This document shows positions 2,457-23,150 of a stretch of DNA of 23,839 bases, in pieces. Within the stretch, counting starts at the first letter, position 1, and the number at the start of each line of letters is the position of its first letter. Below the pieces are notes generated by a model that was given only the letters and a program-made list of their open reading frames with translations, was not told the DNA's origin and did no database searches. The position numbers and the translations under genes were made by a program. Source of the DNA: a virus; the IMG/VR virus record IMGVR_UViG_3300008450_000450, positions 1 through 23,839 of that record. One strand, 5' to 3'.

Positions 2457-2494
2457 TGGTATATTTATATATAAATATAATTATATAAGTATGA
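2457..2494 (+). promoter_or_regulatory. Weak promoter-like site before the ribbon-helix-helix gene
   Basis: The gap holds very AT-rich DNA ending in TTATATAAGTATG, whose last three bases are the start codon at 2491. AAGTATG matches the end of the stronger box at 6435, but the TAT-TTTA core is degenerate and no TTG lies 20 bp upstream (TGG instead). Confidence 0.3.
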
Positions 2495-2673
2495 ACACAA
2501 AAAAGCTAACATCGGTTAAAGTAGAGGAGAATCTTCTACAGGAATTTAAAGAACAATGCGTAAGGCATAAATTTTCTCTACAAAAGCTTGTAGACAGAGC
2601 AATTTTTTTATATCTTACAGAAGAGGAGTTTAAAGATAAACTGCATACACAAACAAATATTAAATTAAAATAG
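2491..2673 (+). CDS. Small ribbon-helix-helix-type DNA-binding protein
   Basis: The 60-residue protein has the layout of CopG/Arc-type ribbon-helix-helix regulators. A short strand (KLTSVKVEENLLQEF, about 5-19) is followed by two helices (about 15-28 and 32-50, with FSLQKLVDRAIFLYL). Such proteins bind DNA as dimers through the N-terminal strand, as repressors, antitoxins or centromere-binding proteins. No toxin gene is adjacent. It sits alone just before the glycosyltransferase genes, so it could regulate them or its own promoter. Confidence 0.6.
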   Translation: MNTKKLTSVKVEENLLQEFKEQCVRHKFSLQKLVDRAIFLYLTEEEFKDKLHTQTNIKLK

Positions 2674-21502: not shown

Positions 21503-21601
21503 TTAGCAACTTAGGAGAGGGGGCGTTTTTATATCAAGTCATGTCGCGCAAATTCTCCCAACCTTCCAGGTTGATAGAGTTAAAATCAAAATAAAAGTTA
21601 T
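21503..21601 (+). promoter_or_regulatory. Long, GC-richer 5' leader with possible RNA structure
   Basis: This leader is atypical: GGAGAG near 21513 followed by GGGGGCG, then TCATGTCGCGCAAATTCTCCC and AACCTTCCAGGTTGATAG. GGAGAG can pair with TTCTCC, and AACCT with AGGTT across TCC. It could be a regulatory RNA or attenuator. The compared leaders in this window are short and A-rich. No known riboswitch is recognised. Confidence 0.4.
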
Positions 21602-21799
21602 ATGAATATAGAAGACGTAGTATTATACCGTAAGAAGTATAGAGGAAGTAAAATAGCTTTTAACTCTAGAAAAGGGGTAGGAAAGATTATAGAAGGAATA
21701 GCCGTACAGGTGGTAAAGGAAGCAGGAGGATTAGTAATCCTTAGAGACTATGATAACTTCCCTCATTGTGTATCAATATTAACATTGGAGGAGATATGA
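21602..21799 (+). CDS. Small hypothetical protein (65 aa)
   Basis: This unrecognised 65-residue protein has a beta-rich reading: VVLYRKKYRGSKIAFNSRKG, GKIIEGIAVQVV, VILRDYDN, CVSILTLEEI. It resembles small KOW/SH3-like phage proteins in layout, without a definite match. It follows the long structured leader. Its last codons carry GGAGGAG, the Shine-Dalgarno of the next gene, and the genes overlap as ATGA. Confidence 0.65.
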   Translation: MNIEDVVLYRKKYRGSKIAFNSRKGVGKIIEGIAVQVVKEAGGLVILRDYDNFPHCVSILTLEEI

Positions 21800-22032
21800 C
21801 CGTAAGAGAATTAATTGAAAGTCTAAGTAAGATAGAAGATAAGGAGATAAGAGTAATGGTAAGAGGATATGAAGGAGGGTATGATGATATAATAATAGAT
21901 AATACTCCAGCAATCGTAGATATAGCCTTAGGTATAAATGAAGAATGGTATTATGGAAGACATGAAAGAATAGAAGATGTAATAATGAATGCAAGGGGAG
22001 AATATACTATAGTAAAGGCAATTATTCTATAG
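21796..22032 (+). CDS. Small hypothetical protein (78 aa)
   Basis: From ATG at 21796, directly preceded by GGAGGAGAT (a strong Shine-Dalgarno, rare in this window), the product is 78 residues: MTVRELIESLSKIEDKEIRV, then GYEGGYDDIIIDNTPAIVDI. TVRELIESLSKI-x-D-KEI-V-V reads like small regulatory/antirestriction phage proteins, but I cannot name a family. An upstream ATG at 21766 was rejected. Its stop is 4 bp before the repeat array. Confidence 0.65.
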   Translation: MTVRELIESLSKIEDKEIRVMVRGYEGGYDDIIIDNTPAIVDIALGINEEWYYGRHERIEDVIMNARGEYTIVKAIIL

Positions 22033-22036
22033 AGAG

Positions 22037-22114
22037 ACCCGTTCATAGACCCGTCTAAGAACCCGTTTACTAACCCGTCTTGATACCCGTCTCTATCCCC
22101 GTTCTCATACCCGA
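22037..22114. repeat. 12-bp direct-repeat array, block 1 (7 units)
   Basis: Seven units of ACCCGT plus 6 variable bases start at 22037, 22049, 22061, 22073, 22085, 22097 and 22109, exactly 12 bp apart. Five are exact ACCCGT; unit 6 is CCCCGT and unit 7 is ACCCGA. The six-base parts differ (TCATAG, CTAAGA, TTACTA, CTTGAT, CTCTAT, TCTCAT). All three plus-strand frames contain stops, so it is not coding. Confidence 0.95.
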
Positions 22115-22388
22115 TTTATATTGATATGGACTGGGGAAGATACATGGAGAGGTATAGGGAGAATCATTAAGAAACGATATAAAAGGTAAAGGACTTTGGT
22201 TAATCATAAAGAGTAGTAAAAAGAAAGGAAGGGTATAAAACATATAGTACTTGGTATTAAAAGGTACTGTAAAGGTAATAGGATGTGTAGTAAAAAGAGA
22301 AAGGGATGGTAAAATAAGGATAGGAAAAATATAGGATAGGTGTACCCTTGGTGACTTTTTCCTATAATAAGAAAAATCTATACTTATA
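22115..22388. other. Purine-rich non-coding stretch between the two repeat arrays
   Basis: About 270 bp without an ORF of note. The plus strand is rich in A and G (runs such as GTAGTAAAAAGA occur twice about 80 bp apart, near 22213 and 22284, each followed by a GGG-x-GGTA-type run). GGTA words recur. I see no promoter box. The plus strand is pyrimidine-rich in the flanking arrays, so strand composition flips here. Confidence 0.6.
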
Positions 22389-22558
22389 ACCCGTTCTATA
22401 AACCCCTTTTTCCTTCCTAGTAACTCGATTCGATACCCGTTATAAAACCCTTTCCGGAACCCAATTGAGACCCGTTTTGTAACCCGACCTCTTACCCGTT
22501 TGGAGACCCGTCTTATGACCCGATTTGTTACCCGATTGAGACCCGTTTTAGTCCCCGG
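22389..22558. repeat. 12-bp direct-repeat array, block 2 (about 14 units, partly degenerate)
   Basis: Units begin at 22389, 22402, a decayed one near 22412, 22423, 22435, 22447, 22459, 22470, 22482, 22494, 22506, 22518, 22530, 22541 and 22553. Six are exact ACCCGT and three are ACCCGA; the others are variants (ACTCGA, ACCCTT, ACCCAA, ACCCCT, CCCCGG). Spacing is 12 bp except two 11-bp units with the same spacer TTGAG (from 22459 and 22530). Orientation is the same as block 1. Confidence 0.9.
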
Positions 22559-22564
22559 TTACTT

Positions 22565-22580
22565 CCCCCCTTCGGGGGGT
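22565..22580 (+). terminator. C6/G6 hairpin with UUC loop (possible terminator or structural hairpin)
   Basis: CCCCCC at 22565-22570, TTC, then GGGGGG at 22574-22579 form a very stable hairpin (a UUCG-type loop is also possible). It is followed by TAAAAAAG, not a T run, so on the plus strand it is not a normal intrinsic terminator. It closes the repeat region. Confidence 0.5.
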
Positions 22581-22599
22581 AAAAAAGTTGTTAAAAAAG

Positions 22600-22635
22600 T
22601 TGCCTATATGGCCTATGGTTCTTATCTTTAGGTAT
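22600..22635 (+). promoter_or_regulatory. Promoter TTG-N20-TATCTTTAGGTAT
   Basis: TTG at 22600-22602, 20 bp, TATCTTTAGGTAT at 22623-22635, a full match. Just upstream AAAAAAGTTG is duplicated (22581-22590 and 22593-22602). The spacer has GCC-TATAT-GGC, a weak hairpin. Confidence 0.8.
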
Positions 22636-22653
22636 ATTAAAAAAAGATATACT

Positions 22654-22869
22654 ATGGATAAGATAAAGGAATTGACTGAGGTAATAGGAAAGGATTGTTC
22701 TTGTAATGGTTCTCCTACACTGAGAGCTAAATTAATAACTGTAGGACCTCTTTGGTGCGTACTTGAAATATCTCCTACTATGTATAATAGGAACCAATGG
22801 GCAAATACCTCAGTGGGTAAACAATTCAAGGTACCAACCAGCATAACTCACAATATGTATTTCTTCTAA
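22654..22869 (+). CDS. Small hypothetical protein (71 aa)
   Basis: From ATG at 22654, 19 bp after the promoter box, the product is 71 residues: MDKIKELTEVIGKDCSCNGS, TLRAKLITVGPLWCVLEISP, TMYNRNQWANTSVGKQF. CSC and LWCV are its cysteines. An in-frame ATG at 22588 lies before the promoter and was rejected. The protein is unrecognised and may be a small DNA- or protein-binding factor. Confidence 0.65.
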   Translation: MDKIKELTEVIGKDCSCNGSPTLRAKLITVGPLWCVLEISPTMYNRNQWANTSVGKQFKVPTSITHNMYFF

Positions 22870-22872
22870 GCT

Positions 22873-23022
22873 ATGAAAACAATTCAAGTTACTCTCCAGG
22901 AGAGATGGGCAGCATCCAAGCACCAAGTCCACAGGTCAAAAAAATCCTACACCAGGAAAGACAAGCATAAGAAAAAGGGCTCCAATCAGGGCTCTTCTTT
23001 TTTAGTTAAAGCATCACTTTAA
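22873..23022 (+). CDS. Small very basic protein (49 aa)
   Basis: ATG at 22873, 3 bp after the previous stop, opens 49 codons: MKTIQVTLQERWAASKHQVH, then RSKKSYTRKDKHKKK, ending ...FLVKASL. The basic core strongly suggests nucleic-acid binding. A terminator hairpin (22975-23003) overlaps its last codons, so the mRNA might end before the stop, or the C-terminus may be spurious. The call is by composition, tight spacing and an ATG, not homology. Confidence 0.5.
   Translation: MKTIQVTLQERWAASKHQVHRSKKSYTRKDKHKKKGSNQGSSFLVKASL
22975..23003 (+). terminator. Terminator overlapping the 49-aa ORF
   Basis: AAGGGCTC at 22975-22982 and GGGCTCTT at 22989-22996 pair with two G-U wobbles around CAATCA, followed by C and six T. 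A good intrinsic terminator that lies inside an apparent coding end. Confidence 0.6.
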
Positions 23023-23040
23023 GTTAAAGCTTTGCTTTAA
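23005..23040. repeat. Tandem 18-bp palindromic repeat (2 units)
   Basis: GTTAAAGCATCACTTTAA (23005-23022) and GTTAAAGCTTTGCTTTAA (23023-23040) are adjacent 18-bp units; each is a hairpin TTAAAG...CTTTAA. They may be operator sites or a decayed terminator pair. They lie just before the leftward transcript region. Confidence 0.7.
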
Positions 23041-23150
23041 GTGGGTAGTAACAGGTAGTAGGTATTACCAACTACAGAATATAAGGTACCGGCCCGTCTA
23101 CTCTTCCGACTCTCTTTCAAAGCCAGGCCCCTTATTTCTCCGTTAATCTT
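23041..23150 (-). ncRNA. Candidate leftward non-coding or antisense RNA
   Basis: The minus-strand promoter at 23156-23191 would start a transcript near 23150 running left. No minus-strand ORF with a usual start and useful length begins here; the first ATG near 22970 gives only 7 codons. Read on the minus strand, AAGG-GGCC (about 23133-23126) can pair with GGCC...CCTT (about 23095-23084), giving a structured element. The 3' end is unknown; it could run into and be antisense to the genes at 22654-23022. Predicted only. Confidence 0.35.

Follow-up and report, generated by a model that had tools for sequence, protein, structure and literature searches.

A conserved pair of 12-bp repeat arrays around a purine-rich core in a relative of Flavobacterium phage immuto

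What could be the role of a non-coding phage region in which one short motif recurs, at a nearly constant pitch, in two separate blocks? The question is raised by positions 22037-22564 of the window, i.e. the whole stretch of 23,839 nucleotides of viral DNA that was analysed, where a pair of ACCCG-type arrays surrounds a non-coding core. The source is related to Flavobacterium phage immuto, a T4-like myovirus of 160 kb whose genes lie nearly all on one strand; 47% of the window matches immuto, at an identity of 81%.

Organization of the element and of its surroundings

The first array (22037-22120, plus strand) is composed of seven 12-bp units, ACCCG(T/A) followed by variable bases, and aligns with immuto from position 66317. 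The units start at 22037, 22049, 22061, 22073, 22085, 22097 (the sixth, which reads CCCCG) and 22109, a spacing of exactly 12 bp throughout. The second array (22389-22564, plus strand), kept in relatives, contains 14 units with at most one mismatch to ACCCG, located from 22389 to 22553 with successive pitches of 13, 21, 12, 12, 12, 11, 12, 12, 12, 12, 12, 11 and 12 bp. All units of both arrays have the same orientation. The original prediction of two arrays, seven units and then about 14 more in one orientation after roughly 270 bp, is confirmed, the gap measuring about 268 bp; the 12-bp pitch that it assigned to them is strict in array 1 and, with one 21-bp gap, holds mostly but not strictly in array 2. 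The pattern ACCCGT-N6-ACCCGT, with at most one mismatch, was observed 10 times, whereas 100 dinucleotide shuffles gave no match at all (mean 0.00).

The core between the arrays (22121-22388, plus strand; 268 bp) is non-coding and purine-rich; it is supported by an alignment of 18 cores and by nhmmer matches in relatives. Its best conserved block in this alignment reads GTATAAA..ACATATAGTACTTGGTA..AAAAGGTACTGT...GATGTGTA, followed by GTGT(C)TCC-type and T-run/TATA(A)T blocks. Purines make up a fraction of 0.34 in array 1 and 0.37 in array 2, both of which are pyrimidine-rich, against 0.74 in the core (22126-22340). As had been claimed, the core is thus purine-rich: it is the maximum of the window over 215 nt, the next highest value being 0.73 (215-nt windows, 10-bp steps).

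The gene upstream (21790-22032, plus strand, 80 aa) ends with a stop codon 4 bases before array 1 and differs among relatives. Directly 3' of array 2 lies a GC hairpin, CCCCCC-TTC-GGGGGG (22565-22579, plus strand), found in many, not all, relatives with ACCCG units and absent from the inspected relatives with AACCG units; its role as an intrinsic terminator is unproven because no T-run stands behind it. The early-type promoter of the next gene, TTG-N20-TATCTTTAG (22600-22631, plus strand), starts about 35 bases past array 2, and the same motif precedes many genes of the immuto early region. In immuto the element aligns, through array 1, core and array 2, with 66.3-66.96 kb, where the annotation places two very short hypothetical genes over it. 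It stands there among the early-type promoters, which cluster at 60.9-76 kb, while late genes carry TATTTATA-like promoters, and an intrinsic-terminator-like hairpin with a T-run is located immediately 5' of array 1. The GC skew of immuto has no sign flip, which is not decisive on an origin because essentially all genes share one strand. Among relatives, array 1 begins in most cases right at the upstream stop codon or no more than a few bases from it, though the upstream gene varies, and the element usually sits just 5' of an early-type promoter.

Distribution in relatives and selection on the motif

Relatives were gathered by means of a nearby DUF932 protein, core words and the unit code; many of the records are fragments. 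Checked for the 12-bp pitch, immuto and more than 20 IMG/VR contigs were found to keep the array 1-core-array 2 layout, therefore neither of the outcomes set against the original prediction, no such pitch in relatives or a decayed gene, was encountered. In searches of whole records the arrays occurred at one locus per record, and a control pattern gave none. Group A, with ACCCG units, has 13 to 15 members, whose core E-values (1e-47 to 1e-83) include those of sequences used to build the profile. Group B has AACCG units at a pitch of exactly 12 bp and heterogeneous spacers (L207, L159, L161 and L208), with core E-values of 1e-7 to 1e-10 against the group A profile, and it has further members. 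The layout was also found in L348, L350, L355, L378 and L390, and L372 is a distant ACCCG-type member. Group C (L175, L203, L212, L193 and L157) consists of weaker relatives whose arrays are altered or of 11 bp, or which show just the 3' half of the core; with core E-values of 1e-4 to 0.2, their homology is suggestive only.

In the DUF932 tree the phages of groups A and B share a single clade, which counts 27 rows and has an SH-aLRT of 98. L207 is nested there among ACCCG phages, so that two changes or more are required to account for the AACCG type. As the core of L207 groups with B, the element may have been exchanged as a whole. An apparent loss of the arrays in the close relative L135, where none lie within 8 kb, was rejected: a single copy of the two arrays is present about 12 kb away. 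L154 has no array match within its 30-kb fragment. Most ACCCGT-N6 matches listed in IMG/VR look like coding or simple tandem repeats; the same appearance was noted for the matches in low-GC bacterial genomes that were inspected among those listed, and the layout was absent from every one of these bacterial matches. Five or six AACCGTTT units at a pitch of about 12 bp were seen in L343 (3440-3500), L345, L364 and L359 (4005-4085), unrelated viral contigs of higher GC (0.43-0.45) that have no core and are perhaps independent arrays.

It had been proposed that selection acts on the motif and its spacing rather than on a duplicated unit, and the comparison of relatives agrees with this. Pooled over four pairs (window-L135, L136-L140, L012-L148 and L152-L156), substitutions affect 22 of 308 motif sites and 122 of 580 spacer sites, i.e. 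about 0.07 versus 0.21 per site, a difference of about threefold; motif sites were defined on one sequence per pair, a choice that does not itself lower the motif rate. Spacers vary from one unit to the next, which speaks against the mere re-duplication of a single unit. Deviations in pitch offset one another (lag-1 r -0.40, computed, like the position-2 counts below, on related phages and hence not on independent events).

The motif consensus is A-C-C-C-G-T-Y-Y in group A (256 units) and A-A-C-C-G-W-Y-Y in group B (169 units). Conservation extends beyond the C-rich tract to the first A (96-100%) and the G (82-91%). At position 2, the 15 ACCCG-type phages have C in 255 of their 256 units, and the 9 AACCG-type phages have A in 168 of 169. 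Single mismatches were allowed in this count, so that the letter of the other group was acceptable; one such case occurred among 425 units. The switch is made in lockstep in both arrays, therefore one trans-acting, sequence-specific reader is indicated, and this is the best evidence pointing to such a putative reader. The consensus of AACCG-type units, AAACCGTTT, forms a pseudo-palindrome (AAAC-C-GTTT), which on our reading of the unit table fits the site of a dimeric DNA-binding protein, whereas the ACCCG-type consensus is far less palindromic.

Coding capacity, folding and candidate proteins

The claim that the element is non-coding is borne out: every plus frame of the window is interrupted by one stop or more in each array and by many in the core. 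Among 20 members, no frame is open across array 1, core and array 2, and the cores are stopped in every plus frame, so a repeat-containing gene, decayed or live, was rejected. Folding gave no common structure either. RNAalifold applied to 18 cores yielded a consensus with practically no structure (4 pairs, -0.44 kcal/mol), cores and arrays are no more stable than shuffles, and the arrays fold weakly, array 2 often below its shuffles. Two core hairpins picked by hand, AGUACU...GGUACU and GAGG...CUCC, look compensatory in some members and are lost in the 18-sequence alignment. With the Rfam 15 covariance models, two weak matches far below the gathering score were obtained in 21950-22680 and none at gathering across the window. 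The suggestion that G3 runs of the minus strand form G-quadruplexes is disfavoured because GGG is not kept in the AACCG-type arrays, the minus strand of which gives GG.

Candidates for the reader were sought among phage proteins. A ribbon-helix-helix-like protein of 60 aa (window 2491-2673) is 82-95% identical among array phages and 37-63% in most others. It was rejected as the reader of position 2, its strand LTSVKVE being identical in ACCCG and AACCG phages, and its presence in phages devoid of arrays counts against it as well. A small basic protein of 49 aa, MKTIQVTLQERWAASKH... (window 22873-23019; unlisted, with a weak likeness to DUF7230), is encoded 3' of the element in almost every array phage with a locus reaching far enough. 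This candidate was also discarded: it occurs where no array is near (L209 and L184) and does not follow the motif type, L012 combining an AACCG-like version of the protein with ACCCG arrays. The tubulin family PF00091 was absent from the records of 8 relatives (0/8), with 13 of 14 control genomes positive. Neither ParR nor ParM was found, but here the search was uninformative, as PF06406 (actin-like ParM) matched none of 8 records and no control genome either. No replication initiator was recognised among the neighbouring genes.

Possible roles and comparison with known systems

The units of the R1 parC centromere are 11 bp long and those of pBtoxis tubC 12 bp, while plasmid iterons are usually about 17-22 bp. 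The phage element has split blocks of 11-12-bp direct repeats, as type II and III centromeres do, and tandem direct repeats at fixed spacing, as iteron origins do. In R1 parC two repeat sets lie around the par promoter, and in tubC direct repeats form two or three blocks (PMC5016525). The element resembles parC/ParR (type II partition) in that two short direct-repeat blocks flank a middle part and one protein would read them in trans, and differs from it in its units of about 12 bp, its purine-rich middle of about 270 bp with no recognised promoter, and its carrier, a lytic-type T4-like phage. With tubC/TubR (type III partition) it shares direct repeats arranged in blocks; its motif and context are unrelated, and the tubulin family is missing as described above. 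Like iteron origins, it associates selected direct repeats of one motif with A/T-rich, asymmetric sequence; unlike them, it has shorter units and no recognised initiator in its neighbourhood. The likeness to origins and centromeres first proposed extends to the split direct-repeat blocks and stays an analogy, with no reader protein and no tubulin-family gene found. T4-like phages have several origins, and T4 oriE is reported with 12-nt repeats of unproven role (PMC3016281). The present arrays differ from these in being non-coding, in two blocks and of another sequence, and oriE was rejected as a homologue, the T4 repeats detected having a 24-nt period inside the coding sequence of gene 5. These T4 repeats (NC_000866 79430-79550; about 4930-5050 of L215) are the only regular ones detected near oriE and may bear on the iterons reported there. 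As the partner proteins or activities that define the above classes are absent, not found or beyond sequence analysis, membership in any of them cannot be claimed.

The explanation we favour, with a confidence slightly short of even, is a nucleoprotein platform at the DNA level, iteron- or centromere-like and possibly a replication origin. A sequence-specific protein, of phage or host, would bind each unit of about 12 bp, reading A-(A/C)-C-C-G-(T/A)-Y-Y; the constant pitch would allow the subunits, once bound, to polymerise along the two arrays, and this polymer would draw the purine-rich core into a nucleoprotein complex. By analogy with R1 parC, tubC and iteron origins, the likeliest use would be starting replication or handling the phage genome, and the core, with its purine-rich, RNA-like strand, would lend itself to priming by an R-loop. 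In immuto, the terminator-like hairpin would stop upstream transcription from entering array 1. Such a platform is consistent with a layout conserved in immuto, in 13 ACCCG-type phages, in AACCG-type phages and in further members, with a lockstep switch that is hard to account for without a common reader, and with the pseudo-palindrome, the compensating pitch, the motif reaching beyond its C-rich tract and the lack of a core fold or of any stability above shuffles. Against it stand the failure of all candidate readers tried, the weakly palindromic ACCCG consensus and a 12-bp pitch that is out of phase with the DNA helix. The element also always runs along transcription, right after a stop codon, as expected of an RNA element; the orientation is hardly informative, since these phages have all their genes in one direction. 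We infer that the putative reader acts on DNA and not RNA, that it polymerises and that it may serve replication; between the two levels, we lean slightly towards DNA.

The main competitor is an RNA element, either the 3' UTR of an early operon transcript or a non-coding RNA of its own, in which unpaired A(A/C)CCGWYY units would gather or titrate an RNA-binding protein. This would suit an array 1 that abuts the stop codon of differing genes, weakly folded units all pointing with transcription, a new promoter downstream and the GC hairpin closing the element in many members, and the lockstep switch fits an RNA reader equally well. Yet the cores are essentially structureless, a terminator-like hairpin with a T-run precedes array 1 in immuto, no internal promoter was recognised and several members lack the hairpin behind array 2, so we regard this reading as possible and rather unlikely. 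Rho prefers pyrimidine-C, and the C-rich arrays could be oversized rut sites that end early transcription or sequester host Rho. Described rut sites are richer in C than in G over about 78 nt and have a C residue every 11-13 nt (PMC6407284). ACCCG-type arrays come strikingly close to this pyrimidine-rich, C-spaced geometry (C/G 2.0, pitch of 11-13 in 145 of 146 steps, 7 x 12 = 84 nt), the two plus-strand 78-nt stretches of the window with the greatest excess of C over G are the two arrays, and a position right after a stop codon suits Rho. However, AACCG-type arrays keep the exact pitch with a C/G of 1.14 and a purine content of 0.44-0.58, hence are not C-rich, and Rho loading leaves unexplained the base-specific 8-nt motif, with its near-invariant first A, conserved G and concerted change at position 2, and gives no reason for a conserved core; we consider it improbable. 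Slightly more doubtful still is another role of the DNA, as a packaging or recombination site or as an insulator between mosaic gene modules. Upstream neighbours do switch exactly at array 1 across relatives, but such a role alone gives no account of two arrays with a common reader, and T4-like phages are thought to package by a headful mechanism that would need no defined site.

The two-array element seems to be previously undescribed. It is conceivable, at a likelihood well below even, that it represents a new kind of lineage-specific control element in phages, with two polymerisation arrays, a putative reader and a shared 8-base code rewritten in both arrays, together with the core, from phage to phage; it would perhaps be an origin of Bacteroidota T4-like phages or an RNA that acts as a sponge for a host factor. 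Its presence in a Flavobacterium phage available in culture, as three immuto isolates, lets the origin, centromere and RNA-sponge models be tested directly, and the ACCCG/AACCG switch is a natural specificity swap for finding the reader protein.

Other features were observed around the element and in immuto. A sequence GGAGAGGGGGCG...TGTCGCGCAAATTCTCCCAACCTTCC (window 21510-21580), which recurs in immuto in front of two genes (42449 and 64758) and is also present in L012, resembles a small structured leader RNA, with zero Rfam matches at gathering. A second conserved C-rich non-coding element, GTACCGGCCCGTCTACTCTTCCGACTCTCTTTCAAAGCCAGGCCCC (window 23085-23131), lies about 0.5 kb past array 2; it is also found in immuto, L012, L136, L142 and L148, with diverged copies in L203 and L212. 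Tandem TTTAAGTTAAAGC repeats forming inverted pairs (window 23000-23042) are longer in immuto and L012. In immuto (L126, 18607-37015), queuosine-type genes are annotated together with DpdA (7-deazaguanine in DNA).
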